DNA of 64,000 bases from Conexibacter woesei Iso977N (lineage in GTDB: Bacteria > Actinomycetota > Thermoleophilia > Solirubrobacterales > Solirubrobacteraceae): assembly GCF_000424625.1 (NCBI RefSeq), contig NZ_AUKG01000001.1, positions 434,001 to 498,000 on the forward strand, read 5' to 3'. The number at the start of each line of letters is the position of its first letter. Within the stretch, counting starts at the first letter, position 1. Both the position numbers and the translations under genes were made by a program. A model generated the notes under the pieces. It saw nothing but the letters and a program-made list of their open reading frames with translations, made no database searches and had not been told where the DNA came from. This document shows positions 15,195 through 53,720 of the stretch, one piece after another.

Positions 15195-15554
15195 ATGCGG
15201 GTGGGCATTGATCTGGTGAAGGTCGCGAGTGTTGCTGAGGCCGTGGAGGAGCATGGGCAGCGGTATCTGGATCGGGTCTACACCGCGCAGGAGCAGGCCG
15301 ATTGCCGGGGTGAGGCGTTGAAGCTCGCGGCGCGGTTCGCTGCCAAGGAGGCGGTGATGAAGGTCCTGGAGGTGAAGCGCGACGAGGCGGTCGCTTGGAC
15401 CGACATCGAGGTCATTCGGCAGACCGAGGGCGCTCCGAGGGTCGCGCTGCACGGCACCGCGGCGGAAGCCGCCAGGAGCGGCGGAATCTCCGACCTGGCG
15501 CTCTCCTTCACCCATGAGGACGAGTACGCGGCCGCTGTCGTCGTGGGGACATAG
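15195..15554 (+). CDS. acpS: Holo-[acyl-carrier-protein] synthase
   Basis: 119-aa AcpS-type 4'-phosphopantetheinyl transferase: transfers phosphopantetheine from CoA to a carrier-protein serine. Signature N-terminus MRVGIDLVKV with metal-binding Asp6, and RFAAKEAVMKVL with Glu52; C-terminal LSFTHEDEYAAAVVV is the usual AcpS end. Length is standard. It is the first gene of the rightward cluster; the next gene, 50 bp on, is a carrier protein, so this enzyme is well placed to load it. It may also serve fatty acid synthesis, since I see no other acpS in the window. A leaderless -10 precedes the ATG. Confidence 0.92.
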   Translation: MRVGIDLVKVASVAEAVEEHGQRYLDRVYTAQEQADCRGEALKLAARFAAKEAVMKVLEVKRDEAVAWTDIEVIRQTEGAPRVALHGTAAEAARSGGISDLALSFTHEDEYAAAVVVGT

Positions 15555-15577
15555 GCAGGCGGCCTTGCATCCACCGG

Positions 15578-15605
15578 TCAAGATCTCCACCGAGAGCACC
15601 GATAA
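15578..15605 (+). promoter_or_regulatory. Sigma-28-like promoter of carrier-protein operon
   Basis: TCAA (15578-15581), 16-nt spacer, ACCGATAA (15598-15605): the same layout as the flagellin promoter. Transcription should start near 15612, 1-2 nt before GTG 15614, as at the other copies of this motif that lie 7-9 nt from a start codon. Inference from sequence only. Confidence 0.5.
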
Positions 15606-15865
15606 TGACGGACGTGTCTTTTCCCGAAGTCCGTGAGATCGTCAAGGAGCACGGCCGCCTCGCGGCCGACGTGGAGACGCTCGCCGATGGCGACTCCCTC
15701 TACGAGGCGGGCATGACCTCGCATGCGAGCGTCAACGTGATGCTCGCGCTCGAGGACGCCTTCGACGTCGAGTTCCCCGACGAGATGCTGAAGCGCTCCG
15801 TCTTCGAGTCGGTCGCGTCGATCGCCGCCGCCCTGCAGCAGCTCGACGCGCCGCTCGTGGCATGA
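15605..15865 (+). CDS. Acyl-carrier-like protein for aminoacyl groups
   Basis: 86-aa stand-alone carrier protein. The phosphopantetheine serine is Ser39 in EAGMTSHASVNVMLALEDAF; canonical ACPs have DSL here, this one has TSH, which marks the special carrier proteins served by amino acid:carrier-protein ligases rather than fatty acid ACP. The protein is acidic and helical, with FPDEMLKRSVFESVASIAAAL as helices III-IV. If transcribed from the sigma-28-like promoter, translation would begin at GTG 15614 instead of ATG 15605. The stop overlaps the next start (ATGA). Expected to be pantetheinylated by AcpS and aminoacylated by the ligase three genes along. Confidence 0.88.
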   Translation: MTDVSFPEVREIVKEHGRLAADVETLADGDSLYEAGMTSHASVNVMLALEDAFDVEFPDEMLKRSVFESVASIAAALQQLDAPLVA

Positions 15866-17025
15866 CCGTCGACACGGACCGCGACGCCGCCTTCCTGGCC
15901 GGCATCGCCCAGATCGCCGACGAGATCGCGGCCGCCAACGCCGACGACGTCGACCGCAACGCCCGCTTCCCGCAGGAGACCTTCGCCGCGCTGCGCGAGC
16001 AGCGCGCGCTCTCCGCGCTCGTCCCCGCCGAGTACGGCGGCGCCGGCGTCTCCTTCGACGCCGTCGCCCAGGCCTGCTTCGAGCTCGGCCGCCGCTGCGG
16101 CGCCTCGGCGATGGTGTACGCCATGCACCAGATCCAGGTCGCGACGATCGTGCGCCACCTGGACGGCTCGCCGTGGTTCGAGGACTACCTGCGCGACCTC
16201 GTCGTCTCGCAGCGCCTGATCGCCTCGGTCACCTCCGAGGTCGGCACCGGCGGCGACATGAGCCGCTCGGTCGCGGCGCTCACGCCCGGCGACGGCGGCA
16301 TGGCGTCCTTCGAGAAGCAGGCCCCCACCGTCTCCTACGGCGCCTACGCCGACGACCTCCTCGTCACGCTGCGCGCCCACCCGGACGCCGACGCCCAGGT
16401 GCTCGTGCTCGCCGCCAAGGACCAGACGACGCTCGAGCCCACCGGCACGTGGGACCCGCTCGGCATGCGCGGCACGTGCTCGCCCGGCTACGTCGTCCGC
16501 GCGACCGTCCCCACCGAGCAGGTGCTCGGCCAGCCCTTCCCGGCGATCTCGACCGAGTCGATGGTCCCGATCAGCCACCTGCTGTGGTCGCACATCTGGC
16601 TCGGGATCGCCACCGACGCCTTCGACCGCGCCCGCGCCTTCGTCCGCGCCGCCGCCAAGCGCGCGCCCGGCCAACCGGTCCCGGCCGCGGTCAAGCTCAG
16701 CCACGTCATGACGCAGCTGTCGCTGTTGCGCGCCGAGGTCCACTCGTCGCTCGACATGTGGAACGGCGCCGCCGACGACCGCGAGAAGCTCTCCACGATG
16801 GCCTTCGCGTTGCGCATGAACAACCTGAAGCTCGCCGCCTCCGAGCAGGCGCCGGTCGTCTGTCAGCAGGCGATGGGCGTGTGCGGGATCGTCGGCTTCA
16901 AGAACGACACCCCGTTCAGCATCGGGCGCCACCTGCGCGACTCGATGTCGGCGTCGCTGATGGTCGCCAACGAGCGCATCCACCAGACGAACGCGCAGCT
17001 CCTGCTGATCGCCAAGGAGGTCTAG
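15862..17025 (+). CDS. Acyl-CoA dehydrogenase-like flavoprotein
   Basis: 387-aa FAD-dependent acyl-CoA dehydrogenase family protein: N-terminal helical domain (ARFPQETFAALREQRALSALVPAEYGGAGVS), middle beta domain (LIASVTSEVGTGGDMSRS; WDPLGMRGTCSPGYVV), and C-terminal helical domain (QAMGVCGIVGFKNDTPFSIGRHLRDSMSASLMVANERI). ATGA overlap with the carrier-protein gene implies a shared substrate. By analogy with prolyl-carrier dehydrogenases of pyrrole biosynthesis, it may oxidise the aminoacyl thioester on the carrier protein; this is inference. The usual catalytic Glu before the C-terminal R-D pair is not obvious, so the chemistry could differ from beta-oxidation. Confidence 0.82.
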   Translation: MTVDTDRDAAFLAGIAQIADEIAAANADDVDRNARFPQETFAALREQRALSALVPAEYGGAGVSFDAVAQACFELGRRCGASAMVYAMHQIQVATIVRHLDGSPWFEDYLRDLVVSQRLIASVTSEVGTGGDMSRSVAALTPGDGGMASFEKQAPTVSYGAYADDLLVTLRAHPDADAQVLVLAAKDQTTLEPTGTWDPLGMRGTCSPGYVVRATVPTEQVLGQPFPAISTESMVPISHLLWSHIWLGIATDAFDRARAFVRAAAKRAPGQPVPAAVKLSHVMTQLSLLRAEVHSSLDMWNGAADDREKLSTMAFALRMNNLKLAASEQAPVVCQQAMGVCGIVGFKNDTPFSIGRHLRDSMSASLMVANERIHQTNAQLLLIAKEV

Positions 17026-17031
17026 GCGCAC

Positions 17032-17976
17032 ATGGCGGCGTACCGCGAGGCGTCTGAGTCCCAGGCGCAGTTGTTGGAGGCCTTGGTCGAGGCCGGGCAC
17101 CTGATCCCGTCCGGCGTCCCCGGCGTGTACGGGCGCGGGTCGGACTACGAGGCCGTCCGGCTGGCCTTCGACGCCTACGTGACGCGGGCGGCGCTCGCCG
17201 CCGGTGAGACTCCGGAAGTGCTCCGCTTCCCCCCGGTCCTGCCGCGCAGGCAGATCGAGGACCTCGGCTACCTGGAGAACTTCCCGCACCTCGCGGGCTC
17301 CGTGTTCGCCTTCGAGGGCAGCGAGGGCCAGGCCCGCGCGATGGCCGAGGTGGCCGGGCAGCACGGCGACTGGTCCGAGCACCAGCACCCGTCCGACCTC
17401 TGCCTGACGCCGGCCGTCTGCTACCCGGTCTACCCCGCGGTCGCGCGGCGCGGCACGCTGCCGGCCGGCGGCGTGACGATCGACCCGGGCGCGTCCTACG
17501 CGTTCCGCCACGAGCCGTCCGGCGACCCCGCGCGCCTGCAGATGTTCCACATGCGCGAGCTGGTCCGGATCGCCGAGCCCGAGACCGTGCAGACGTGGCG
17601 TGACAGCTGGCGCGACCGCGCGCTGGCGTTGTTGGTGGACCTGGGTCTGGACGCGCGCTTCGACGTCGCCAACGACCCGTTCTTCGGCCGCGCCGGCCGG
17701 ATGATGGCCGCCTCACAGCGCGACCAGGCGCTGAAGTTCGAGATCCTGGTGGACATCACCGATCCGGAGCCGACGGCGATCGCGTCCTTCAACTACCACC
17801 AGGACCACTTCTCCGGCCTGTACGGGATCGAGACCGCCGACGGCGGGACCGCGCACACCGCGTGCCTCGGCTTCGGCCACGAGCGGATCGTCCTGGCGCT
17901 GCTGAAGACCCACGGCCTCGACGTCGCGGCCTGGCCGGGTGAGGTTCGCTCGCTGCTCTGGGACTCCGTAGGGTGA
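17032..17976 (+). CDS. Amino acid:[carrier protein] ligase (SerRS-like)
   Basis: 314 aa. Homologue of the catalytic core of atypical (methanogen-type) seryl-tRNA synthetase without the tRNA-binding domain; characterised relatives (e.g. Bradyrhizobium Bll0957) adenylate glycine or alanine and load it on a carrier protein. Seen: class II motif 2 FRHEPSGDPARLQMFHMRE with Arg159 and Glu161; motif 3 LGFGHERIVLALL with Arg285; predicted zinc ligands Cys130, Glu176, Cys278, the trio known from this family. No tRNA-binding arm and the length argue against a tRNA synthetase. Starts 6 bp after the dehydrogenase; GTGA overlap with the next gene. Identification is strong; the exact amino acid is not readable. 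Confidence 0.9.
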   Translation: MAAYREASESQAQLLEALVEAGHLIPSGVPGVYGRGSDYEAVRLAFDAYVTRAALAAGETPEVLRFPPVLPRRQIEDLGYLENFPHLAGSVFAFEGSEGQARAMAEVAGQHGDWSEHQHPSDLCLTPAVCYPVYPAVARRGTLPAGGVTIDPGASYAFRHEPSGDPARLQMFHMRELVRIAEPETVQTWRDSWRDRALALLVDLGLDARFDVANDPFFGRAGRMMAASQRDQALKFEILVDITDPEPTAIASFNYHQDHFSGLYGIETADGGTAHTACLGFGHERIVLALLKTHGLDVAAWPGEVRSLLWDSVG

Positions 17977-18911
17977 GCGCCGTGGACACGGGTGCCGAGG
18001 TCTACGTCCCGCACGCCGTCCACCGGCCGGGCCGGACCTACGTCGAGACCAACTGCTACACCGACGTCCTGATCGAGCTGGTCCACGCGCGCGGCTACGA
18101 GCCGCTGGCGATGTTGGGGATCAACGCGCGGATGGACTTCGAGGGCGACCAGTGGACGTTCTTCAAGCCGGCCCCGGGCGACCTCGAGCTCCTGTACGGC
18201 ATCGACATCCACGAGATGCAGCCCTACCGGGCGATCCCGGACCAGATCGCCGAGCAGCTGGCCGCGGGGCGGTCGATGATCGTCGAGCTGGACGCGTGGT
18301 GGCTGCCGGACACGGCGGCGACGTCGTACCGGTCCGAGCACGTCAAGACGTCGGTGGCGGCGGACGCGATCGACCGCGAGGCGGGGTGGCTGCGCTACTT
18401 CCACAACGCGGGCCGGTACGAGCTCTCGGGCGAGGACTACGCGGGCGTGTTCGCGAGCGCCGTCGCGCACCTGCCGCCGTACACGGAGCTGGTGCGCTTC
18501 GACGCGGGCCCGGCACTGCGGGGCGACGAGCTGCTCGACGCCGCGCGCGCGTGCCTGGCCGGGCACCTGCGCAAGCGGCCGGTGACCAACCCGTTCACGC
18601 GCTTCGGCGCGGCGCTGGCGGTGTCGCTCCCGGACCTGCTGGCGGGCGAGCCGCAGCGCTACCACGAGTACGCGTTCGCGACGGTCCGGATGGTCGGGAG
18701 CGCCTTCGAGCTGCTCGCCGCGCACGTGCGCTGGCTGCTCGGCCCGGACGGCGAGGAGATCGCGTCTGCGATGGATGAGATCGTGAGCGGCTCGATGATG
18801 TTGTCGCTGAAGCTCGCACGCCGGAAGGTCTTCGATCCCGCGCCGGTCGTCGGGAACCTCGCCGCGGCGTGGGAGCGCGCCGTCGGCGGGCTGGATGCCG
18901 CGCTGGCCTGA
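17973..18911 (+). CDS. DUF1839 protein, possible aminoacyl transferase
   Basis: 312 aa, cytoplasmic, uncharacterised. Conserved blocks: YVETNCYTDVLIELVHARGYEP (Cys28), DFEGDQWTFFKP (55-66), LELLYGIDIHEM, VELDAWWLPDT, YRSEHVKTS (His123), LRYFHNAGRY (His144). The TNC motif followed by an Asp-rich strand and a His recalls the BtrH N-terminal fold, in which a Cys enzyme moves an aminoacyl group from carrier protein to an aminoglycoside; I suggest, but cannot prove, a similar transfer here. GTG start overlaps the ligase stop (GTGA), and the 3' end overlaps the glycosidase start by 17 bp, so its expression is tied to both. Confidence 0.78.
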   Translation: MSAVDTGAEVYVPHAVHRPGRTYVETNCYTDVLIELVHARGYEPLAMLGINARMDFEGDQWTFFKPAPGDLELLYGIDIHEMQPYRAIPDQIAEQLAAGRSMIVELDAWWLPDTAATSYRSEHVKTSVAADAIDREAGWLRYFHNAGRYELSGEDYAGVFASAVAHLPPYTELVRFDAGPALRGDELLDAARACLAGHLRKRPVTNPFTRFGAALAVSLPDLLAGEPQRYHEYAFATVRMVGSAFELLAAHVRWLLGPDGEEIASAMDEIVSGSMMLSLKLARRKVFDPAPVVGNLAAAWERAVGGLDAALA

Positions 18912-21159: not shown

Positions 21160-22098
21160 GTGGCTGTCGAGGTCTCCTATTGCGTCGTCAACACGCAGCA
21201 GCGCGAGCTGCTCGTGCGTTGCCTGGATGCGATCGCGGCGGAGCGGGCGGCGCTGCCGTTCGAGGCCGAGGTGCTGGTGCTCGACAACGCGTCGACCGAC
21301 GGGAGCGCGGGCGCTGCGAGGCGGCATCCGACGGTGACCGAGGTCGTGGCGCTCGATCAGCGGCGCGGGAAGGGCGAGAACGACTCGCACCTGCTGCAAC
21401 GGTCGCGCGGGCGGTTCTGCTTGTTGTTGAACGAGGACAGCGAGCTGAAGCCGGGGGCGACGCTGAAGCTGCACGCGGCGCTGACCGGTGCGGAGCGCGC
21501 GGGTGCCGCGGGCGCGAAGCTGCTGCGCCCGGACGGGCGGGTGCAGCCGTCGGCGTGGCGGTTCCCGACGCCGGCGACCGCCGTGGTTGGCGCGTTGTTC
21601 CTGCACAAGCGGCTGACGGTGCAGTCGCGCGGCCGGAGGACGCGGCGGGTCGACTGGGCGCAGTCGGCGGCGCTGCTGGTCCGGCGGGACGCGGCGAGGG
21701 AGATCGGGTGGTTCGACCCGCAGTTCTTCGTGTACTCGGACGAGGTCGACTTCTGCAAGCGGCTCGCCGACGCCGGGTGGTCGACGCTGTGGGTGCCGGG
21801 CGCCGAGGCGTTCCACCACGAGCAGTTGTCGACCGGCGCGGTTCCGGAGCGGCGGATCGTCGAGCTGTCGCGCAACCGCGATCGGTACATGCGCAAGCAC
21901 CACTCCGCCGGCGCGGCGTTCGTGGTGCGGGTGCTGACGGCGTGGACGTACGCGGTCCGGGCGCTGGTCGCGACGGTCGCGCCCGGCCACGACCCGAAGC
22001 GCTACTGGAAGCACGTGACCGCGACGCTGCGCCCATCGCGCGGCGAGGGCCTGCGCGAGGCCGCGCACGAGTTCAACCGCGGCGGCCCGACGCTGTAA
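21160..22098 (+). CDS. Glycosyltransferase family 2, WbbL-like
   Basis: 312-aa GT-A glycosyltransferase related to rhamnosyltransferases. Seen: VSYCVVNTQQRELLVRCLDAI, LVLDNASTDGSAGAAR, LLLNEDSELKPGAT (DxD position as NEDSE), SAALLVRRDAAREIGWFDPQFFVYSDEVDFCKRL (acceptor/catalytic loop), HHEQLSTG. C-terminal amphipathic helices may dock on the membrane. Last gene of the rightward operon, 6 bp after the glycosidase, and followed by a hairpin. It supplies the glycan arm of the aminoacyl-carrier cluster; donor and acceptor unknown. GTG start gives the correct N-terminus. Confidence 0.87.
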   Translation: MAVEVSYCVVNTQQRELLVRCLDAIAAERAALPFEAEVLVLDNASTDGSAGAARRHPTVTEVVALDQRRGKGENDSHLLQRSRGRFCLLLNEDSELKPGATLKLHAALTGAERAGAAGAKLLRPDGRVQPSAWRFPTPATAVVGALFLHKRLTVQSRGRRTRRVDWAQSAALLVRRDAAREIGWFDPQFFVYSDEVDFCKRLADAGWSTLWVPGAEAFHHEQLSTGAVPERRIVELSRNRDRYMRKHHSAGAAFVVRVLTAWTYAVRALVATVAPGHDPKRYWKHVTATLRPSRGEGLREAAHEFNRGGPTL

Positions 22099-35149: not shown

Positions 35150-35164
35150 GGACGCCAGGCGGCC

Positions 35165-35192
35165 TCAAGACGCCGCTGAGAGCGACCGATCA
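35165..35192 (+). promoter_or_regulatory. Sigma-28-like promoter of Gfo/Idh/MocA gene
   Basis: TCAA (35165-35168), 16-nt spacer, ACCGATCA (35185-35192), identical in its -10 to the promoters of two glycosyltransferase genes. It ends 9 nt before ATG 35202. Confidence 0.6.
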
Positions 35193-35201
35193 CCGGGTTT
35201 G

Positions 35202-36188
35202 ATGGTGAGAGCGATCATCCTCGGCGCCGGCCCGGCCGGCGAGCGCCATGGGCGCGCCTTGCGCGCGCTCGCTGATCGCTGCCTGCTCGCGGGTGTCTAC
35301 GACCCGGACCCGGAGGCCGCCAAGACGCTGGCCATGACGCTCGGGATCCCGTGGCTGGAGGCGATCGAGCCGGCGTTCGTCGAGGCGCACGTCGCGGTGG
35401 TGGCCGGTCGTGTGGACCTGCGCCCGCGGTTGGCGCGTGCTGCTTTGGAGGCGGGGCTCGACGTGCTGGTCGAGCCGCCGCTGGCGCCGGATGTGGATGC
35501 GGCGCATGGGCTTTTGAGCGCGATCGTGCGCGCGCCGCGCCGGCCGGTCGCGATGGTCGCCTTCGACGAGCACTACGACCCGGCGATGCGCGAGCTGCGC
35601 GCGCTGGTCGCCGATCACCAGGTCCTTTCGGTCCACGCCGAGCGCGCCGAGCCGGGCGGGACGTCCGGGCCGGTCGCCGAGCTGGACGTCGTCAGCGAGC
35701 TGATGGTCCAGGACCTCCAGTTCGTGATGGCGTTGCGCGACGAGCCGATCGCCGCGACCCAGGCCGCGGGGCGCCGCGTCAGGCGCGGCGGCCCGATCGA
35801 CCATGCCCAGGCGCTGCTGGTGATGGAGGACGACATGATCGCCTCGCTGGTCGCGTCGCGCGGCGGTGTGTCGCGGGTGCGACGGCTGCTGGTCACCACG
35901 ACGCAGGCGGAGATCCGGGTGGACCTGGAGACCCGCGTCCTGGAGGCGGTCCGGTCGACGCAGACGATCGGGCGCCACGAGCAGGTCCTGCAGCGCATCA
36001 CCCTTCCCCACGAAGACGCCTGCGTCGCCCAGGCCGCGGCGTTCCTGCGCTACGTCGAGCGCCGCACGGCGCCGGAGCTCGGCATCGGCCACGCGATCGC
36101 GTGCCAGGAAGCCGCCCAGGCGATCCTGAAGCGCATCGAGCTGATCGCGCACCGGCCGGCGATGCGCAAGGGGCCGCAGGCGGCGTAG
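35202..36188 (+). CDS. Gfo/Idh/MocA family oxidoreductase
   Basis: 328-aa NAD(P)-dependent sugar oxidoreductase. N-terminal Rossmann fold VRAIILGAGPAGERHGRALRAL, acidic DPDPEAA after the second strand, and the EPPLAPD segment that replaces the usual EKP of this family. The C-terminal alpha/beta domain covers about 125-310 (FDEHYDPAMRELRALV; GPVAELDVVSELMVQDLQFVMAL). The usual catalytic Lys of EKP is absent, which questions normal dehydrogenase chemistry. ATG 35202 (or GTG 35205) fits the promoter upstream. Divergent from the CapD-like dehydratase; both could modify the same nucleotide sugar, but the promoter types differ (flagellar here, housekeeping there). Confidence 0.83.
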   Translation: MVRAIILGAGPAGERHGRALRALADRCLLAGVYDPDPEAAKTLAMTLGIPWLEAIEPAFVEAHVAVVAGRVDLRPRLARAALEAGLDVLVEPPLAPDVDAAHGLLSAIVRAPRRPVAMVAFDEHYDPAMRELRALVADHQVLSVHAERAEPGGTSGPVAELDVVSELMVQDLQFVMALRDEPIAATQAAGRRVRRGGPIDHAQALLVMEDDMIASLVASRGGVSRVRRLLVTTTQAEIRVDLETRVLEAVRSTQTIGRHEQVLQRITLPHEDACVAQAAAFLRYVERRTAPELGIGHAIACQEAAQAILKRIELIAHRPAMRKGPQAA

Positions 36189-38056: not shown

Positions 38057-39148
38057 TCAGGCCGCCGCGGAGACGCCGGCGCGGACCGCTTCGGCGACCT
38101 CGGCGATCTGCTCGTCGCGCAGCGCGGCGGACATCGGGATCGCGAGGTGCGTGCGGGCGGCCTCGTCGGTCCCGGGCAGCGGGACGCGCGGCGCGTAGGG
38201 CGCCATCGGCGGCTGTGCGTGCACGGGCGTCCGGTAGTAGGCGCGTGCGCCGATCCCGGCGTCCGCCAGCGACGCGGCGAGCGCGTCGGCCGCCGCGTGG
38301 CGGATCACGTAGAGGTGCCACGCCGGCCGCGAGCCCGGCGTGGGCACCGGGACCTTCACCACGCCGTCGAGCAGCTCGGCGTACCTGTCCCCCGCCTCCG
38401 CGCGCGCGGCCGCCCACCTGTCCAGCTGCGGCAGCTGCACGCGCAGGATCGCGGCCTGCAGCTCGTCGAGCCGGCTGTTGTAGCCGATGTCGACGTAGTC
38501 GACCTTGTCCTCGGAGCCGTGGAAGCGCAGCGTCCGGACCCGCTCGGCCAGCGCCGCGTCGCGGCACGTGATCGCGCCGCCGTCGCCCATCGCGCCCAGG
38601 TTCTTCGACGGGTAGAACGAGAACGTCGCGATCGTCCCCAAAGCACCAGGCCGCCCGGCCGGCGACGTCGAGCCCGCGGCCTGCGCCGCATCCTCCAGGA
38701 CCGGGACGCCGAGCGCCTCGATCTCCGCCACCGGCGCGACGTTGCCGAACAGGTGGACGACGATGACCGCCTTGGTCTTCTCCGTCATCACCGCCTTCAC
38801 GCTGTCGACCGTCACGCACATCGTGTCCGGGTCGACATCGCAGAACACCGGCACCGCGCCCGTCGGCGGGATCGCCTCGGCGCTGGCCCAGAACGTGAAC
38901 GACGGCACGATCACCTCGTCCCCCGGCCCCACGCCCAGAGCGCGCAGCGCGACCGTGATCGCCTCGGTCCCGTTGGCGACGCCGACCGCATGCTGCGCGC
39001 CGACGTAGGCGGCGAACTCGGTCTCGAACGCCGCCACCTCCGGCCCGAGCACGAAGTGCCCGGAGTCGAGCACGCGGTGGACCGCGGCGCGGATGTCCGC
39101 GCGCAGCGGGGCCTGCGACGCGAGGGGGTCGAAGAGCGGGACCGGCAC
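38057..39148 (-). CDS. DegT/DnrJ/EryC1 sugar aminotransferase
   Basis: PLP-dependent aminotransferase that converts a keto-sugar nucleotide to an amino sugar. 363 aa from GTG 39148; GTG 39154 is within 2 nt of the -10 and so unlikely. Seen: FDPLASQAPLRADIRAAVHRVLDSGHFVLGPEV, VGVANGTEAITVALRALGVGPGDEVIVPSFTF, DAAQAAGS (Asp binding PLP) and catalytic Lys182 in FSFYPSKNLGAMGDGGA. Likely partner of the CapD-like dehydratase, giving a 4-amino-4,6-dideoxy sugar. Followed 2 bp later by the DUF354 gene. An amino sugar of this kind would be a good acceptor for an aminoacyl group from the carrier-protein operon (inference). Confidence 0.92.
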   Translation of the reverse strand: MPVPLFDPLASQAPLRADIRAAVHRVLDSGHFVLGPEVAAFETEFAAYVGAQHAVGVANGTEAITVALRALGVGPGDEVIVPSFTFWASAEAIPPTGAVPVFCDVDPDTMCVTVDSVKAVMTEKTKAVIVVHLFGNVAPVAEIEALGVPVLEDAAQAAGSTSPAGRPGALGTIATFSFYPSKNLGAMGDGGAITCRDAALAERVRTLRFHGSEDKVDYVDIGYNSRLDELQAAILRVQLPQLDRWAAARAEAGDRYAELLDGVVKVPVPTPGSRPAWHLYVIRHAAADALAASLADAGIGARAYYRTPVHAQPPMAPYAPRVPLPGTDEAARTHLAIPMSAALRDEQIAEVAEAVRAGVSAAA

Positions 39149-39156
39149 GGTCACGC

Positions 39157-39162
39157 AGCCTA
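39157..39162 (-). promoter_or_regulatory. Leaderless -10 element of DegT gene
   Basis: TAGGCT on the minus strand, 8 nt before GTG 39148; only 2 nt before GTG 39154, which decides the start. Confidence 0.5.
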
Positions 39163-39193
39163 GCCCGCCGCGCGGAGCCGACGGCCCGGGCGC

Positions 39194-40414
39194 CTACGCG
39201 GGCGCGACCAGCGCGTCGCGGTTGGCGCGGGCGCCGTCGTCGGCGGGGTCGACGAAGAGCGCGAGCTCCAGGCACTCGGCCGCGCGGGGGAACGCTTCGA
39301 GGGCGTGGTACACGACGCCGAGGTCGTTCCAGACGCCGGGCAGGCTCGGCGCCACCGCGGTCGCCGTCTCGATCAGCCGGGCGGCGCCGATGGCGTCTCC
39401 GGCCTCGAAGCGGGCCACGCCGGCGGCATGCAGCGTTCTGGCCTCGACGTCCAGCCCGAGCCTGCGCAGGCCGGCGTCGAGGTCATTCAGGACGTCGGGG
39501 CGCTGCTGGTCCCGAGCGAGCTGCCACAGGATCACGCGGAGCTCCCGGCACTGCGGGAACCGGCGCACGACCTCGGCGAGGCGCTCGATCGGCACGCGCC
39601 GCCACTGCGACAGGCCCAACCCGTCGCGGTAGAGGCCGTTGAGCGACTCCCCGAACTCCGCCTCCGTGAGGCCGAGGTGCAGGACGTCGTCGTAGAGCTT
39701 CGTGAAGTGCAGCGTGAGGTACTCGTGCGCGACATCGGCCCAGCCGATGTCGGTGCAGCCCAGGACGCCATGCTCGCCCGCGACCACGCACGGCCCCTGC
39801 AGGCCGGCGCGGAAGAACCAGAGGAGCGGCAGGTACGCGTTCTCCGCCGTCGTGGCCGCGTGCGCGTCGCGCAGCGCGTCGGCGCGGACGATCGACGCCG
39901 ACAGGAACGTCAGGTACTGGTGCTGGTCGCGCCACAGCGCGCCCGGATCCGGGTGGACCTGGGCCGCGCCGGTGACCGGCGTCCAGTGCGTGACGACGCC
40001 GTCGGCCGCGGCGCTGAGGTACGGGTGGAACAGCCATGCGGGACGGTGCTCGCGCAGCAGCGCGGCCGTCCGCTCGATCGCGCCCGGCAGCGGCACGTCG
40101 TCGTCGCCGAAGCACCACAGGTACTCGGCATCCGGCGCGTGCTCCATCAGCCAATGGCCGTTGGCGAACGGTCCGATGTTCTCGGGCTGGCGATGCACGC
40201 GCAGCCATGGCAGCCGCACGCTCGCAGCCGCCAGGATCTCCGGCGTCGCGTCCGGCGACGCGTTGTCGGCGACCTGGACGATGATGTCGTCGCGATCGCC
40301 GATCTCGCGCTCGAGCGCCTCGAGCAGGCGCTCCAGCAGCGGTGCCCGGTCGTACGTCGGGACCAGCAGGCCGAGCAGCGCTCGCTGCGCCGTGGCGGGA
40401 GAGGGAGCGTCCAC
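39194..40414 (-). CDS. Glycosyltransferase family 2 with TPR-like tail
   Basis: 406 aa. Residues 14-115 are a GT-A domain (LLVPTYDRAPLLERLLEALE, VQVADNASPDATPEIL, ENIGPFANGHWL, CFGDDDVPLPGAIE with the D-D-D metal site). Middle region has HPYLSAA and WFFRAGLQGP acceptor-side helices. From about 320 to the end lie helical repeats (LIETATAVAPSLPGVWNDLGVVYHALEAFPRAAECLELALFVDP), a TPR-like pair known for binding protein partners. Preceded by TCAA-N15-ACCGATCA ending 7 nt before the GTG, a sigma-28-like promoter. I infer a flagellar-regulon glycosyltransferase, possibly acting on flagellin. Confidence 0.84.
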   Translation of the reverse strand: MDAPSPATAQRALLGLLVPTYDRAPLLERLLEALEREIGDRDDIIVQVADNASPDATPEILAAASVRLPWLRVHRQPENIGPFANGHWLMEHAPDAEYLWCFGDDDVPLPGAIERTAALLREHRPAWLFHPYLSAAADGVVTHWTPVTGAAQVHPDPGALWRDQHQYLTFLSASIVRADALRDAHAATTAENAYLPLLWFFRAGLQGPCVVAGEHGVLGCTDIGWADVAHEYLTLHFTKLYDDVLHLGLTEAEFGESLNGLYRDGLGLSQWRRVPIERLAEVVRRFPQCRELRVILWQLARDQQRPDVLNDLDAGLRRLGLDVEARTLHAAGVARFEAGDAIGAARLIETATAVAPSLPGVWNDLGVVYHALEAFPRAAECLELALFVDPADDGARANRDALVAPA

Positions 40415-40421
40415 ATCATGG

Positions 40422-40448
40422 TGATCGGTCCTGCGCCGGGTCGCTTGA
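40422..40448 (-). promoter_or_regulatory. Sigma-28-like promoter of GT2-TPR gene
   Basis: Minus strand: TCAA (40448-40445), 15-nt spacer, ACCGATCA (40429-40422), 7 nt before GTG 40414. The 12-mer GGTGATCGGTCC here (plus strand) recurs at 43554-43565 before another glycosyltransferase. Confidence 0.6.
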
Positions 40449-40507
40449 GCGTTCAGGTACGTGCGCGGTCGGCCGGCCGCTGCCGAACGCGGCAGCAGGC
40501 GAGGCGG

Positions 40508-43500
40508 CTACGCCGCCGCGACGGCGGGCCGCGCGAGCACGCCGGCGAGCTGCTCCGGCCGGACGGCGAGCGCCAGGTCGCCGAGCCGGGCACCGTCCTC
40601 GCCGGCGAGGATCAGGCAGGCGACCAGCTCGCCGAGGCCGTCTGCCGCGCCGGTCTTGCGCGGCGACGGGACGTCGGCAGCGGCGATCGCCTCGACCGCC
40701 TCCTCCACGCTGAGGGATCCCGCGAGCGGGAGGTGGTGGAGCAGCCGCCGCGCCGCCTCGCCGGCGTGCGCCAGCAGCTGCGCGCGATCGGGCCGCTCCA
40801 GATGCCGAGGGCGCTCGAGCCCGACCGTGTAGGAGCGGCGCGTCAGGAAGTCGTCGTTCAGGCGCGCGGCCGGGATCAGGTGGCCCACAGCGCCCGCGAT
40901 CACGTAGCGCGTCGCGCCGAGGCCGCGGCGCTGGACCTGCCAGGCGACCGAGACCTCCTCGCCGCCGATGCGGGCGTCAGGGCCCACGCCGAGCTCCGGA
41001 TCGAAGCCGCCGGCGGCGAGCAGGACCGAGCGCCTGGCGCCCCAGTTGCCGCCATAGACGATCTTGGGCGCCACCAGCGACAGGTCGGCGTCGCCGTGGT
41101 CGAGGACGCCGTAGAAGGGCTCGAGCCGCGGCGCGGGCCAAGCGGGATCGCGCTCCTGCGGCCACAGCCCGACGATCGGTCCGCCGGCGATCGCGACGCC
41201 GTCGCGGGCGAGCTCGCGCGCCAGCGCGGCGGCCCAGCCGGGTGCGATCCGCGCGTCGTCGTCGAGGTAGATCAACAGCTCGTGCGATGCCGCGTGGGCG
41301 CCGGTGTTGCGGGCGATCGACAGCCCGGCGCGCGGCTCGTCGACCACGCGCACCGCCGGATGGCGCTCGGCGAGCGCGGCGAGGACGTCCGGCGTCGCGT
41401 CGGTCGAGCCGTTGTCGACCACCACGATCTCCGCGACCCCCTGTCCGACGACCTGCTCGACGCAGCCTTCGATGATGTCCGCCCGGTCGCGCGTGCAGAT
41501 GATCACCGAGCAGTCGGGCATGGCGGCGCGATCGACGGCCGCTCCGGCCACGGCCACGACAGGACCCCGGTCCGAGACCCAGCCGGCGAGCTGGCGCTCG
41601 GCGTGCCCCTCGCGCGACGGCCAGTGCGGCGGCATCGCGCGCCACGTCTCGCGCCGCGCGGCCAGCGCGTCGAACGGCAGCGCAGCGGGACGTTCGCCGC
41701 CGCCCAGCGGCCAGAGCGCGCCGGCGGGGTCGACCGACAACCCGAGCGCACCGTCGACCGCCGGGCCGGCGAGGGCGGCGCCGGCCTCGACGGCGTCGAT
41801 CAACGGCGCGGCGAATCCGGCACGCGGGAGCGCGTGCGGCTCGAGGACGATCAAGATGTCCGCCTCGGTCGCGTTGACCGCGCGCAGCTGGGCGAGGCGG
41901 CGGCCGGCGCCCCGCGGCAGCGCGACGTGGCGCACTCCGGCGGGCACCGGGTCGGCCGACAGCGCGAGCAGCTCTGCGTCCGCGCCGGCCCCCGAGGCGA
42001 GCAGCGCCTCGAGCTGGAGCCGGGCGGCGTCCGGGTCGTCGGGCAGGTGGACGGCAACGGCGGCACGCGGTGCTCCCGCCGCGGCGGCCGGCGCGCGTGC
42101 CGGCTCGGGGAGGGCCGGCGTGTCGACCAGGACGGCGCCGCGGGGCGCTGGCGCGTCTCGCCGCCAAGGCGTCACGGCGACGTCGGGGATCGCCTCGGGG
42201 TCGCGCCCCATGGCGGCGAGCGCCGCGAGCAGGCGCCCGAGCAGCGCCTCGGCGTCGTCGTCGACCGGGAACACGAGCGAGGTGGGCGCGTCGGTCGGGA
42301 AGCGCCCCACGTAGTCCTCCAACAACGCGCGCAGCCCGTCGTCGTCGAGGTCGTGCGGCGCGATGTAGCGCTCCGGCACCGAGGCGGTCAGCCCGCGCAG
42401 CGCGCGGCGCGCCACGGCCGGCGACAGCCGCGCCTCCAGGCCGGCGCGCCCGGCCGCGCCGATCGCGCGCCACAGCGCGTCGTCGCAGTGCAGGGCGACG
42501 ATCGCGTCCGCCAGCCCCTGCGGATCGTCGACCACGAGCGCGTGCTCGCCGTCGACGAGGCCCATGCCCTCGGCGCCGATCGTCGTCGTGACGACCGGGA
42601 CGCCGTGCGCCATCGCCTCGCCGATCTTGCCCTTCACGCCGGCGCCGTAGCGCAGCGGGGCGACCGAGACGCGCGCGGCCTCCAGCAGCGGCGCGATCGC
42701 CGGAACCCAGCCGGTGACCTCCACGCCGTCGCCGGCCAGCGCGCGGACCTCGGGCGGCGGCGCGCCCCCGGCCAGCGTCAGCCGCGCTTCGGGGAGGACG
42801 GCGCGCACGCGCGGCCAGACCTCGCCGACCAGGAACAGCGCCGCGTCGACGTTCGGCGCGTGGCGGAAGTTGCCGACGAACAGCGCGCCTTCGCGCGCCT
42901 GCGGCCCCGGGCCCTCGGGCTCCTCGGGATGGACGAGGGAGATGACCGCGACCGGGACCTCGGGCGCCAGCGCGCGCAGCGCCGCGGCGTCGTCCTCGCT
43001 GACGGCGATCAGCCCGTCGGCGGCGCCGTAGGCGGCGGCCTCGCGGTCGCGCGTGCGGACCGCGGCGTCGGCCAGCGCGGGGCTCGCCGCGACCTCGGCC
43101 GCGCGCGCCTCGCGCACCCAGTGGACGTCGACCGTGTCGACCAGCAGCCGCGCGCCCGGCGCCCAGCGGCGCAACAGCGGCAGGTAGGCCTCGGCGACGT
43201 CGAAGAACGAGAGCCAGACCACGTCCGGCCGGACGTCGCGCAGCAGCCCTTCCAGGTCCAGCTCCGGCCGGCCCGCGCGCTGCGCGAGCGGCGAGCGGAC
43301 CGGATCGCCGAGCGTCACCCGGACGCCCATGGCCTCCAGCGCCAGCGCCGCGTCGTGCTGGCCGTCCTCCGCGCCGTCGCGCGCCACGAGCGTCACGTCG
43401 TGCCCCTCGGCGCGCAGCAGCTCGATCAGCCGCAGCTGGCGCAGCGACCCGGCGTCGCGATCGCCCGGCGGGGCGATCTTGCTGATCATGAGGATCGAGC

Positions 43501-43546
43501 ACGGCGCGGCCGCGCCCGTGCGGGGCGATGGCGATGGGAGGGACAT
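40508..43546 (-). CDS. Giant GT4-GT2 fusion glycosyltransferase
   Basis: 1012 aa from ATG 43546. Residues about 20-375: GT-B group 1 domain (ILMISKIAPPGDRDAGSLRQLRL, GALFVGNFRHAPNVDAALFLVGEVWP, APLRYGAGVKGKIGEAMAHGVPVVTTTIGAEGM). Residues 400-680: Ala-rich, probably a second inactive GT-A-like module. Residues 690-930: canonical GT2 (MPDCSVIICTRDRADIIEGCVEQVV, VVDNGSTDATPDVL, LIYLDDDARIAPGW with DDD). No membrane segment. Preceded by TCAA-N16-ACCGATCA. Its size and multi-module plan resemble flagellin-glycosylation enzymes that build a glycan stepwise on protein. Divergent from another fused glycosyltransferase. Confidence 0.85.
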   Translation of the reverse strand: MSLPSPSPRTGAAAPCSILMISKIAPPGDRDAGSLRQLRLIELLRAEGHDVTLVARDGAEDGQHDAALALEAMGVRVTLGDPVRSPLAQRAGRPELDLEGLLRDVRPDVVWLSFFDVAEAYLPLLRRWAPGARLLVDTVDVHWVREARAAEVAASPALADAAVRTRDREAAAYGAADGLIAVSEDDAAALRALAPEVPVAVISLVHPEEPEGPGPQAREGALFVGNFRHAPNVDAALFLVGEVWPRVRAVLPEARLTLAGGAPPPEVRALAGDGVEVTGWVPAIAPLLEAARVSVAPLRYGAGVKGKIGEAMAHGVPVVTTTIGAEGMGLVDGEHALVVDDPQGLADAIVALHCDDALWRAIGAAGRAGLEARLSPAVARRALRGLTASVPERYIAPHDLDDDGLRALLEDYVGRFPTDAPTSLVFPVDDDAEALLGRLLAALAAMGRDPEAIPDVAVTPWRRDAPAPRGAVLVDTPALPEPARAPAAAAGAPRAAVAVHLPDDPDAARLQLEALLASGAGADAELLALSADPVPAGVRHVALPRGAGRRLAQLRAVNATEADILIVLEPHALPRAGFAAPLIDAVEAGAALAGPAVDGALGLSVDPAGALWPLGGGERPAALPFDALAARRETWRAMPPHWPSREGHAERQLAGWVSDRGPVVAVAGAAVDRAAMPDCSVIICTRDRADIIEGCVEQVVGQGVAEIVVVDNGSTDATPDVLAALAERHPAVRVVDEPRAGLSIARNTGAHAASHELLIYLDDDARIAPGWAAALARELARDGVAIAGGPIVGLWPQERDPAWPAPRLEPFYGVLDHGDADLSLVAPKIVYGGNWGARRSVLLAAGGFDPELGVGPDARIGGEEVSVAWQVQRRGLGATRYVIAGAVGHLIPAARLNDDFLTRRSYTVGLERPRHLERPDRAQLLAHAGEAARRLLHHLPLAGSLSVEEAVEAIAAADVPSPRKTGAADGLGELVACLILAGEDGARLGDLALAVRPEQLAGVLARPAVAAA

Positions 43547-43555
43547 CACTCCGGG

Positions 43556-43583
43556 TGATCGGTCCCCTCCGCGCACGCCTTGA
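43556..43583 (-). promoter_or_regulatory. Sigma-28-like promoter of GT4-GT2 fusion gene
   Basis: Minus strand: TCAA (43583-43580), 16-nt spacer, ACCGATCA (43563-43556), 9 nt before ATG 43546. An ATCAC/GTGAT hairpin overlaps the -10 and the start. Confidence 0.6.
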
Positions 43584-43627
43584 GGCGCGCCCGCGCAGGG
43601 GGACAGCGCGCGCGTGGACACGCGTCC

Positions 43628-43655
43628 TCAAGAGCGCTCGGCCGGATGCCGACCA
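43628..43655 (+). promoter_or_regulatory. Sigma-28-like promoter of GT2-CgeB-type gene
   Basis: TCAA (43628-43631), 16-nt spacer, GCCGACCA (43648-43655), 8 nt before ATG 43664. One mismatch (C for T) in the -10. It excludes ATG 43646 as start, since that codon lies inside the spacer. Confidence 0.5.
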
Positions 43656-43663
43656 CCGGAGGG

Positions 43664-46012
43664 ATGTCCTCCCTCCCACTCGTGAGCGTGGTCGTCGCCA
43701 CGTACAACCACGAGCGCTTCGTCGCGCTCGCGCTCGACAGCGTCCTCGCTCAGGAGCCGTGCGGCGGCGAGGTCGAGATCGTCGTGATCGACGACGGCTC
43801 CACCGATGGGACACCGGACGTCCTGGCCCGCTACGGCGACCGCATCCGGGTCGTTCGCCAGGAGAACGCCGGCCACCTCGGCGCCTTCAACCGCGGGCTG
43901 GCCGAGGCACGCGGCACCTACATCGCGCTGCTCGACGGCGACGACGAGTGGGTGCCGAGCAAGCTGCGCCGCCAGGTCGCGATGCTCGAAGCCGACCCGG
44001 GGCTCGGGCTCGTCTACGGCGACGCGGTGCTGATCGACGGCGACGGCCAGGAGATCCACCCGTCCTACCAGGCCTACAACGGCGTGGAGTTCCGCTCCGG
44101 CCACCTCGCCGCCTTCGGCTACCTCATGTGCCACAACATGGCGCAGACCTCGACGATCATCGTCCGGTCCTCGCTGCGCGAGCACTACGCCCCGATCCCC
44201 GACTGGGGCCGCGCCCAGGATTGGTGGATCGCCGTGCAGGTCGCGCGGCGGACCGCGGTCGCGCCGGTCGGCGGCCACGTCGTCCGCTATCGCAAGCACG
44301 ACGACAACCTCGCGCTCGGGCGCGGGCCGCGCCGGTTCGCCGAGCTGCGCGCCAAGGAGATCCCGCTGCGACGCTGGATGTTCTCCCAGGCGCGCGAGAT
44401 CGACGTCGCGATGGAGGACATGGTCGGCGCCCTCTACGCGTTCCACCACTGCGTCGCCGTCGCGTCCCGGGATCTCGGCATCCCCGCCGCGGAGCTGGCG
44501 CCCGATCACGTCGAGCGCGCGAACGCGGCGAACGAGCGGCTGGCCGACGCGGTCGCCGCCGAGCGCCGCGGCGACGACGAGCGCGCCATCCGCGAGGCGC
44601 TCGCGGTCCTGGCCGACTTCCCGCGCGACGCGCACGCGGGCGCGGTGCTGGAGCGGAGCTCGCGGCGCCTGATGCGGGCCCAGCCCATCGTCGAGGAGCG
44701 CCCCGACGAGAGCGCCTGGCCCCTGGAGGAGGCGCGGTCGTTCGTGACCGTCGCCGCCGTCGAGGAGCTGGCCGCCCACCCCGAGCTGCTCACCACCTAC
44801 GCCGAGGCCTTCGACGCCGGCGCGGACGCCACCCTGGCCGTGCACCTGCCCGACGACGCGAGCGTCGCGGTGCTGCTGGGCGCGCTGGAGGCGGCGGGCG
44901 TCTCGGCCGAGGACGGCCCCGACCTGCTCGCCCTGCAGCATCCGCACGCCGAGCCGCTGGAGGCCGCGCTGGCGCGCCACGCCCACGCGGTCCTGAGCGC
45001 CGGGCCGGTGCCCGCCCGCTTCGAGGGCCGCCCGCACGCGGCCGACGCGCCGTCGCTGCGCGCGCTGGCGCGCGAGCGCTGGGAGGTCGAGCCGCTCGAC
45101 ATCGCGATCAAGATCTGCCCGCCCAACTGGATCGGCGCCGAGCACTGGGGCGACACGCACTTCGGGCGCGCCGTCGCCGACGAGCTGCGCCGCCGCGGCC
45201 ACCGCCCGCGCCTGGAGGTCGTCCGCGAGTGGGACACCGACGCGCCGGCCGACGTCGCGCTGCACCTGCGCGGGCTGTGGCAGTACGTGCCGCGCCCGGG
45301 TCAGGTCAACCTGCTGTGGGTGATCAGCCACCCCGAGCTCGTGACGGGCGGCGAGTGTGACCGCTACGACCACGTCTTCGTCGCCTCGGCACCCGACGCC
45401 GAGCGGCTGTCCAAGTTGACCTCCACACCGGTCAGCGTGCTGGAGCAAGCGACGGATCCGGCCGTGTTCTTCCCCGAGCGCGACGACGCGCTGGCCCACG
45501 AGGTCACGTTCGTCGGCAACTCGCGCGGTGTGCTGCGCCGCTCGCTCGCTGGGCTGCTGCCCACCGAGCGCGACGTCGCCGTCTGGGGCAAGGACTGGGA
45601 CCGCCTGATCGACACGCGGCACGTGATCGGCGAGTACCTGCCCAACGACGAGGTCCGCCGCGCCTACGCAAGCGCGGGCGTGCTGCTCAACGACCACTGG
45701 GACGACATGCGCGAGCAGGGCTACATCTCCAACCGCGTCTTCGACGCGTTGGCCGCAGGCGCCGTCCTGCTCAGCGACGACGTGCCCGGGCTGGCCGAGC
45801 GCTTCGGCGACGCGGTCGCCACCTACGCGAGCGACGAGGACCTGCGCGTCGCGGTGGACCGCCTGCTCGCCGACCCCGAGGCCGCCGCGGCGATGGCCCG
45901 CCGGGGTCGCGCGCTGATCCTCGCGGAGCACACGTTCGGCCACCGTGTGGACACGATCCTGGCGCATGCGACCGAGCTGCGCGCGGCACCGGTCCTGGCG
46001 CTCGCCGCCTAG
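43664..46012 (+). CDS. Giant GT2 plus CgeB-like glycosyltransferase
   Basis: 782 aa from ATG 43664. Residues 1-220: GT2 (PLVSVVVATYNHERFVALALDSVL, VVIDDGSTDGTPDVLARY, YIALLDGDDEWVPSKLRRQ). Middle: helices and an Ala-rich linker with an HLPDDASVAVLLGALEAAGV module also seen (as HLPDDPDAARLQLEALLA) in the divergent fusion, so both derive from a common module. Residues 500-782: CgeB-type GT-B domain (VNLLWVISHPELVTGGECDRYDHVFVAS, EVTFVGNSRGVLRRSLAGLLP, VLLNDHWDDMREQGYISNRVFDALAAGAVLLSDDVPGL). CgeB-like proteins glycosylate spore or flagellar surface proteins. Sigma-28-like promoter upstream. Probable flagellin or filament glycosyltransferase; the sugar is unknown. Confidence 0.84.
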   Translation: MSSLPLVSVVVATYNHERFVALALDSVLAQEPCGGEVEIVVIDDGSTDGTPDVLARYGDRIRVVRQENAGHLGAFNRGLAEARGTYIALLDGDDEWVPSKLRRQVAMLEADPGLGLVYGDAVLIDGDGQEIHPSYQAYNGVEFRSGHLAAFGYLMCHNMAQTSTIIVRSSLREHYAPIPDWGRAQDWWIAVQVARRTAVAPVGGHVVRYRKHDDNLALGRGPRRFAELRAKEIPLRRWMFSQAREIDVAMEDMVGALYAFHHCVAVASRDLGIPAAELAPDHVERANAANERLADAVAAERRGDDERAIREALAVLADFPRDAHAGAVLERSSRRLMRAQPIVEERPDESAWPLEEARSFVTVAAVEELAAHPELLTTYAEAFDAGADATLAVHLPDDASVAVLLGALEAAGVSAEDGPDLLALQHPHAEPLEAALARHAHAVLSAGPVPARFEGRPHAADAPSLRALARERWEVEPLDIAIKICPPNWIGAEHWGDTHFGRAVADELRRRGHRPRLEVVREWDTDAPADVALHLRGLWQYVPRPGQVNLLWVISHPELVTGGECDRYDHVFVASAPDAERLSKLTSTPVSVLEQATDPAVFFPERDDALAHEVTFVGNSRGVLRRSLAGLLPTERDVAVWGKDWDRLIDTRHVIGEYLPNDEVRRAYASAGVLLNDHWDDMREQGYISNRVFDALAAGAVLLSDDVPGLAERFGDAVATYASDEDLRVAVDRLLADPEAAAAMARRGRALILAEHTFGHRVDTILAHATELRAAPVLALAA

Positions 46013-51500: not shown

Positions 51501-51971
51501 GACGAGGTCACGCAGCGTGACGTCGCCGCCGTCCAGCGCAGCCAGCAGCGCGGCGCCCTGACCGGCGGCGTCCTGGCCGGCGCGCGCGTCGGCCGCGGCG
51601 GAGGTGCGAACGACCGGCTCGCCCTCGACGTGGTGCACGGGCGCCACGGCGGCGGCGCGCAGGATGAAGTTGTAGGGGTCGTCCAGCGCGCTGCGCCCGA
51701 GCGCGTCGAGCACGTCGCGGCGGACCAGGAACGATCCGGCGGCCACGGCCCGCTCGCCACGCCAGGCCCGGCGGATCAGCGCGGGCCCGGTCGCACGTGC
51801 GCCCGCGCGGCGGCCGCGCTCGCGACCCTCGTCGTCGACCAGCAGCGCGTCGCCGTGGACGAGGCCGGCGCCGGGATGCGCGGCGGCCGCGGCGAGGAGC
51901 CGCTGAAGGCCGTCGGCGGTCCAGGCGTCGCCCGGCGCGAGGACGACGACCGGCTCAGCCGAGGCGGACAA
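48537..51971 (-). CDS. Giant multi-domain glycosyltransferase, tandem GT4
   Basis: 1144 aa from TTG 51971, the only reasonable start; it overlaps the CHAP amidase stop by 17 bp, so it is read from the same mRNA. Residues 1-190 look like the C-terminal half of a GT2 (VVVLAPGDAWTADGL, GLVHGDALLVDDEG, GSFLVRRDVLDALG); the nucleotide-binding half and DxD are missing. Then two GT-B modules: about 215-600 (MTAFGWNDSGGGTMLPRFAAKELVRRGW, FFGSVYPHKGAQLLVAAA, LPSLWWDCAPLVAGECLAARVPLLS) and about 640-985 (RFLFVGGAIGRKGIDVLLGAW, DVLVHPYRGEGFAMPVLEAMACGRPVLL). The C-terminal 150 residues are an Ala/Asp-rich module. Its place after a flagellar amidase and beside flagellin suggests filament glycosylation. 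Confidence 0.83.
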   Translation of the reverse strand: MSASAEPVVVLAPGDAWTADGLQRLLAAAAAHPGAGLVHGDALLVDDEGRERGRRAGARATGPALIRRAWRGERAVAAGSFLVRRDVLDALGRSALDDPYNFILRAAAVAPVHHVEGEPVVRTSAAADARAGQDAAGQGAALLAALDGGDVTLRDLVPELDWPILHPDAARRRALELLAGVAAARTPALPRVASELQRRAAALPVAPAPRRDKGKLVMTAFGWNDSGGGTMLPRFAAKELVRRGWDVVVFHAAVAPDPSGVPYAIREWEEDGVRLVGVHNRAHGLLDLGAPERELDDPPITAAFADLLDRERPDVIHFHNLHNLGAALLDAAAARGIPSYFTTHNYWLACPRAYLLRGDQSLCGGPGDAGGDCAACVGSHDVGGHQARLAGIREAFSRAIGACLTVSHGVRRTLVDQGYPAAALDVVRQCVPAEDEAWERVGRDRVPGRLDDQVLHVGFFGSVYPHKGAQLLVAAAQAVAAEIRVHVHGEIPDRMAHELRRLDRRGLVELHGKFEPTELPDLLARVDAAALPSLWWDCAPLVAGECLAARVPLLSPRMGGLADAIEDGVDGLAFDGGDQAQLTVALERLAGEAGLLERLQSNIAAPRGFAAYVDELEAYYGGARPSRVHDEPPLAVSWVGEHDAPTSLARINRSVVAGLAGDPELTVRAAATDRPVASSPLPHAADVEVRHQWPPDLRPPASGHLALIQPWEFGAVPEAWVGPLNTVVDELWVPSEHVREMYVSSGVEADRVAVVPNGVDLDAFAPEGPAYDLGDRAPGTRFLFVGGAIGRKGIDVLLGAWQAAFTRADDVTLIVKDFGAEGVYRGGDRAELQRLAADPDGPRVVHLTETLSDAEVSALYRACDVLVHPYRGEGFAMPVLEAMACGRPVLLTGGGPTDEFCPPEAGWRIASQRALIPGRQISGMALAGDGWMLEPDAADLTRLLREVAETSAEERARRGVAGRAAAAQLGWDAVSARYAERLKALSERPARIARTPDVDLGLEDDDDRLRLLAVPAYRGTDRLADLLAAWAQAAPSGTPATLVLVADPGQDGDAAGVEGHIVAAAAAAGADLDACADIEVRFLHATPGRDAALAAATDAFVPLHGASEGHARRARAAGNAVVAPDAGAIAAFLATAPAVSATGR

Positions 51972-53659: not shown

Positions 53660-53687
53660 TGATCGGCGGCCCATAACCCCCGCTTGA
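53660..53687 (-). promoter_or_regulatory. Sigma-28-like promoter of flagellin
   Basis: Minus strand: TCAA (53687-53684), 16-nt spacer, GCCGATCA (53667-53660). The -10 matches the FliA consensus GCCGATAA in 7 of 8. A small CCCC/GGGG hairpin overlaps the -35 and may end the upstream operon. Confidence 0.75.
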
Positions 53688-53720
53688 GGGGTGTCCAGTG
53701 TCCGATGGACGCCTGTCGGT

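Follow-up and report, generated by a model that had tools for sequence, protein, structure and literature searches.

The carrier-protein locus

In the window, the 64,000-nucleotide stretch of DNA analysed here from the soil actinobacterium Conexibacter woesei Iso977N, a holo-ACP synthase gene (acpS) is followed on the same strand by a carrier-protein gene and several enzyme genes, with a promoter-like motif lying between acpS and the carrier-protein gene. The features are as follows.

15195 to 15554, + strand: holo-ACP synthase (AcpS; PF01648, TIGR00516 above cut-off)
15577 to 15605, + strand: predicted sigma-28-class promoter of the carrier-protein operon (-35 GTCAAG, 15-nt spacer, -10 ACCGATAA; invariant in 5 congeners; 17.1 bits)
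15614 to 15865, + strand: carrier protein of the PRK07081 family (NF005480, 110 bits, cut-off 72; GTG 15614 preferred over ATG 15605)
15862 to 17025, + strand: acyl-CoA-dehydrogenase-like flavoenzyme (PF02771; adjoins the ligase in 79 of 80 related loci)
17032 to 17976, + strand: amino acid:[carrier protein] ligase, class II aaRS-like (NF005479, 403 bits, cut-off 357; PDB 4h2w/3mey, Bll0957)
17973 to 18911, + strand: DUF1839 protein, a predicted papain-like transferase (PF08893, 306 bits; PMC10318531)
18895 to 21153, + strand: GH2-type glycosidase-like protein (PF22666; in 73 of 80 related loci)
21160 to 22098, + strand: GT2 glycosyltransferase (PF00535)

Judged by its sequence family and by the neighbouring carrier protein (NF005479 and NF005480, both above their cut-offs), the ligase clearly belongs to the amino acid:[carrier protein] ligases, a family whose biological role is stated to be unknown (PMC9437257). 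Together with the carrier protein, the flavoenzyme, DUF1839 and the GH2-type protein, it forms a conserved cassette found in 73 to 80 of 80 related loci, which belong mostly to Actinobacteria and Proteobacteria.

A probable sigma-28-class promoter upstream of the operon

The preliminary description had noted a TCAA-N16 motif before the carrier-protein gene, and the letters bear this out: the 28 bases at 15578-15605 are TCAAGATCTCCACCGAGAGCACCGATAA, exactly TCAA-N16-ACCGATAA. The last A of the -10 box is also the A of an in-frame ATG at 15605, with GTG 15614 located 8 nt further on. CCGATAA occurs once in the window for 1.09 occurrences expected by chance, so that the box alone means little, and its exact count was discarded as uninformative. 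The two-box pattern TMAA-N14-17-CCGATAW has only two occurrences in the 5.7-Mb genome. A reversed-pattern control of this genome search returned nearly zero; since reversal creates rarer words, the control is probably not a fair one, and a matrix background and conservation were used instead.

Five species of the genus carry the operon, and every one of them has TCAAG and CACCGATAAT unchanged, with 14-15 nt from TCAAG to ACCGATAA, while the spacer and flanks diverge. All 12 motif columns are unchanged, but only 8 of the 47 remaining intergenic columns are (Fisher p 1e-7; five species). The spacer is 15 nt long in four of the five operon sites, as in the genus's own flagellin promoters. Since both boxes are kept in all five congeners with changing spacer and flanks, we consider the reality of the motif settled.

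In many genera of the family, flagellin promoters read CTCAAG-N14-GCCGATNA, where N is any base. A matrix was built from 25 flagellin promoter sites, all outside this genus, and applied to the fetched regions. Its top-ranked sites belong to flagellar genes (flagellin, FlgF/G-type rod, CheW and others) and to four glycan transcription units of the window. With this matrix, scores of 14.7-17.8 bits are obtained for the operon sites in the five species. The background contains 8 positions of at least 14.7 bits among 300,000, which gives a chance of about 0.002 for a site of such score in a given 60-nt stretch; a single score is thus modest evidence, and it is the five-species conservation that carries the argument. 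Hit fractions in a control set of 545 gene regions understate the contrast, because this set is contaminated by true flagellar sites.

Promoters of the sigma-28 class are recognised here by a -35 TMAAG and a -10 SCCGATNA 14-15 nt apart, an arrangement seen in GTCAAG-N15-ACCGATAA; the first -10 base is A instead of G, likewise at several glycan-island sites. The boxes are conserved around a variable spacer in 5/5 congeners with the operon, and the genome encodes cognate sigma factors, with FliA_WhiG matches above cut-off at C1:523282 and C2:1255933. Compared with flagellar sites, the operon sites have G or A, not C, before TCAAG, have ACCGATAAT, not GCCGATCA, and score lower. Overall, the site at 15577-15605 is very probably a sigma-28-class promoter.

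Start codon and predicted near-leaderless message

ATG 15605 is absent from all four other congeners, which have ATC there instead, and a start codon 7-9 nt past the -10 box is kept in the five species. GTG 15614, the start proposed in the preliminary description, is therefore the most likely one, and ATG 15605 was rejected as the carrier-protein start. FliA promoters have their transcription start about 7 nt past the -10 box, so the message is predicted to begin at about 15612; a near-leaderless carrier-protein message from GTG 15614 is a reasonable prediction. Start codons of the glycan island genes likewise lie 2-9 nt past the -10 box. The flagellin leader is about 100 nt long; the flagellin message would not be leaderless, and that of the carrier protein would be.

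Sites of the same class before flagellin and glycan genes

Six sites are found in the window, before the carrier-protein operon, flagellin and four glycan transcription units, most of them with like sites in congeners. The features beyond the operon are the following.

35164 to 35192, + strand: predicted sigma-28-class promoter CTCAAG-N15-ACCGATCA before the Gfo/Idh/MocA oxidoreductase gene (ATG 35202; 19.2 bits; kept in two congeners)
35202 to 36188, + strand: Gfo/Idh/MocA oxidoreductase (PF01408)
38057 to 40414, - strand: GT2-TPR glycosyltransferase (39194-40414), then PseC-like DegT aminotransferase (38057-39154) (PF00535, PF01041; TIGR03588 219 bits, below cut-off)
40422 to 40449, - strand: predicted sigma-28-class promoter CTCAAG-N14-ACCGATCA before the GT2-TPR gene and the DegT aminotransferase gene (19.9 bits)
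40508 to 43549, - strand: two-domain glycosyltransferase (GT1 + GT2)
43556 to 43584, - strand: predicted sigma-28-class promoter CTCAAG-N15-ACCGATCA before the GT1 + GT2 gene (19.2 bits; like sites before glycosyltransferases in G030 and G045)
43627 to 43655, + strand: predicted divergent sigma-28-class promoter CTCAAG-N15-GCCGACCA before the glycosyltransferase gene (ATG 43664; 18.0 bits)
43664 to 46012, + strand: glycosyltransferase (PF00535, PF13524)
52748 to 53557, - strand: flagellin (PF00669, PF00700)
53660 to 53688, - strand: predicted flagellin promoter CTCAAG-N15-GCCGATCA (24.3 bits; kept in congeners)

The same motif had been claimed to precede flagellin; it does so as a variant, TCAA-N16-GCCGATCA at 53687-53660 (- strand), about 100 nt before ATG 53557, and not as an identical sequence. 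The strict motif clusters between the operon and the flagellar genes, both end sites excluded (binomial p ~1e-4 in each of three genomes). The window also contains a dehydratase and the PseC-like DegT aminotransferase, both below their family cut-offs.

Three further observations concern this neighbourhood. A pair of divergent sigma-28-class promoters at 43556-43655, separated by about 40 bp, faces two large, oppositely oriented glycosyltransferase genes, each of which has its start codon just past the -10 box. A CHAP-domain/TIGR02594-like protein is encoded at 51955-52623 (- strand), directly downstream of flagellin. In the flagellar cluster, a GT2 glycosyltransferase with TPR repeats adjoins fliA (L014 2408-4906, - strand) and is a candidate flagellin glycosyltransferase.

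Distribution of the operon and its site in the family

Among 101 genomes of the family, 20 encode the ligase, including five from this genus; two flagellate congeners (G008 and G059) lack it. Flagellin was matched in 16/20 genomes with the ligase and in 40/81 of the others (p 0.02), a co-occurrence that is confounded by kinship. The gene is not confined to genomes where flagella are found: a flagellin match is absent in 4 of the 20 ligase genomes, all of genus g2 and 73-93% complete, which indicates that the cassette chemistry is not specific to flagella. No sigma-28-class site was found before the operon in these four g2 genomes, and three of them have a probable carrier-protein start that overlaps or directly adjoins the acpS end. 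A strong site is also absent in several flagellate relatives that have the operon (G019, G044, G096 and G042), and no convincing one was found in the proteobacterial loci fetched. In G095 (genus g25), GTCAAG-N15-GCCGATTA stands further upstream of the carrier protein (21.5 bits). A CTTAAG-N15-GGCGAAAA motif, or one similar to it, recurs at a constant distance in several soil MAGs, a finding that is no more than suggestive. Separately, four soil MAGs (L169, L172, L177 and L178) show CTTAAGGTTT-N-GGCGA at a fixed distance upstream of the carrier protein, possibly a divergent promoter of the same class.

Candidate sigma factors and alternative readings

Of the two cognate sigma factors, FliA lies in the flagellar cluster (C1:523282). 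The second, at C2:1255933, matches FliA_WhiG with 287 bits, and its best PDB matches (301 bits) are 6pfj/6pfv, which we take to be Streptomyces WhiG. Most of the family's genomes contain WhiG-type matches of comparable strength, whether or not flagellin is found in them. WhiG has flagellar promoter specificity in common with FliA; in Rubrobacter, mapped WhiG-type promoters lie before type IV pilus genes that are predicted WhiG targets, and RsiG homologues are known in Thermoleophilia (PMC8325347). In Conexibacter, PilD, PilM and prepilin-like genes, named from their sequences, also carry the motif. The promoter class by itself therefore does not mean flagella and, given a WhiG homologue of the same expected specificity, does not identify the reader. 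The proposed tie to the flagellar regulon stands as far as the promoter is of the sigma-28 class and has sites of its class before flagellin and four glycan units; the part that named FliA as the reader is not established, owing to the WhiG homologue and the pilus genes, and the flagellar regulon would be one of two live readings.

According to the other, WhiG, held by a c-di-GMP-dependent anti-sigma factor (RsiG), would read the promoter, and the cassette would belong to a type IV pilus or surface-attachment programme, not a flagellar one. This reading has a real, if lesser, chance of being correct. Besides the distribution of WhiG and its pilus targets given above, it draws on the PilD sites of four congeners, GTCAAG/ATCAAG-N15-GCCGATCA, which resemble the operon's GTCAAG/ATCAAG-N15. 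Immediately before TCAAG, almost all flagellar and glycan sites have C, and the operon and PilD sites have G or A, a comparison that was hand-compiled, unblinded and made on non-independent orthologues, and is taken as suggestive, not as proof. However, the operon sits in a flagellar/glycan neighbourhood where the glycan genes have CTCAAG sites, the PilM sites are CTCAAG as well, the g2 genomes have a WhiG homologue and the operon yet no site, and RsiG was not found in the neighbourhood of the sigma gene, where it was searched. A versus C in CCGATNA was tried as a WhiG/FliA separator and rejected, because any base can stand at this position in the family's flagellin promoters. Overall, we hold the chances of FliA rather than WhiG being the main reader of the operon promoter to be about even.

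Other sites were noted in passing. Sigma-28-class sites of genes that resemble type IV pilus genes (PilD, PilM, prepilin) of the genus lie at L324 8924 and 8092, L325 8569 and 7736, L319 1720-3048 and L321 488-2972, and the PilM sites have a conserved GACGAACA-type -10. A TCAAT-N-GCCGATAA site precedes an HDOD-LuxR gene (L018 10649-10676; G000 C2:1306648) with a CGTCCA word kept inside the spacer, where a second factor perhaps binds; sites resembling it occur in genomes with and without flagellin.

It is improbable that the boxes form a housekeeping (sigma-70) promoter, with GATAAT as -10, a poor -35 and an incidental flagellar resemblance. GATAAT does match TATAAT at 5/6 positions with TCAAGA 17 nt upstream, and some relatives have TTGCAG-N18-GATACT at the position of the operon promoter, but a consensus scan found no sigma-70 site, the conserved TCAAG and the CACC before GATAAT are needed by a sigma-28 promoter and not by a sigma-70 one, and the flagellin promoters of the genus have a matching spacer and -35. 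A chance match, in which transcription of the operon would come from acpS and translation would begin at ATG 15605, GAGAG 15592-15596 serving as ribosome site, is very improbable: the acpS end lies 50 nt before this ATG with no terminator found between, and CCGATAA alone is at chance frequency, but both boxes are invariant in five species and the ATG is missing from the other four.

Discussion

The best overall explanation, to which we give a probability of roughly 60%, is that a sigma-28-class (FliA/WhiG) promoter ties the cassette to a surface-appendage programme. Through a near-leaderless message that begins around 15612-15614, the promoter would drive the carrier protein, flavoenzyme, amino acid:[carrier protein] ligase, DUF1839, GH2 and GT2 genes, perhaps in addition to transcription continuing from acpS. 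In this genus, the cassette would thereby join the surface-appendage programme together with a glycan island under the same promoters.

All the steps that follow the promoter are what we infer from the genes. The carrier protein would be charged with an amino acid by the ligase, the flavoenzyme may oxidise this amino acid, and DUF1839 could transfer it to the amino group of a sugar destined for the filament glycan; the nearby dehydratase and DegT aminotransferase could make such an amino sugar. Ligation of an amino acid to a cell-surface amino sugar was predicted earlier (PMC2922099), DUF1839 has been classed with papain-like enzymes and given a suggested role in glycan processing (PMC10318531), and genes for carrier proteins and DegT aminotransferases are found in the flagellin glycosylation islands of other bacteria (PMC4875605, PMC7874193). 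Given these predictions, the amino-sugar enzymes and the parallels with glycosylation islands, the most economical target for this genus would be a glycan of a filament or pilus. Amino-acid decoration of the filament glycan is plausible and fits the earlier prediction; that the product actually resides on a flagellar or pilus glycan is put forward tentatively. The pathway in full, in which an aaRS-derived amino acid:[carrier protein] system under sigma-28-class control, with near-leaderless messages, places an (oxidised) amino acid onto an amino sugar of flagellin or pilin glycan, is more doubtful still.

What is new here is the conserved putative sigma-28-class promoter of the cassette and the extension of the same class to nearby glycan genes; no paper linking the ligase family to flagella was found in the literature searched. 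The promoter offers a regulatory clue to the timing of cassette expression and suggests filament or pilus glycans as the target class. If the full pathway is true, it would be the first biological role for the ligase family, and the aminoacylated filament glycan would be of a kind that we have not seen described.

The operon site resembles known sigma-28 (FliA/WhiG) promoters, TAAA / GCCGATAA, in box letters, spacing and distance to the start. The consensus -35 is TAAA, whereas it is TCAAG in the family of Conexibacter; the operon -10 begins with A, and the start codon falls at the expected transcription start. The Rubrobacter WhiG-type promoters were mapped by 5'-end capture (PMC8325347), whereas the operon site is a sequence-based prediction. 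The Bradyrhizobium Bll0957 system (PDB 3mey/4h2w) has the same ligase, carrier protein, flavoenzyme, DUF1839 and GH2 in one cassette; Conexibacter differs in the adjacent acpS and in the sigma-28-class promoter before the carrier protein. The Conexibacter flagellin glycosylation island is a candidate, based on gene content and common promoters. It has glycosyltransferases, a DegT aminotransferase, a Gfo/Idh oxidoreductase and a carrier protein near flagellin, as do the islands of Enterobacteriaceae and Aeromonas (PMC4875605, PMC7874193). In the latter, the carrier proteins go with fatty-acid-type or LuxE enzymes, whereas in Conexibacter the aaRS-like ligase would load an amino acid.
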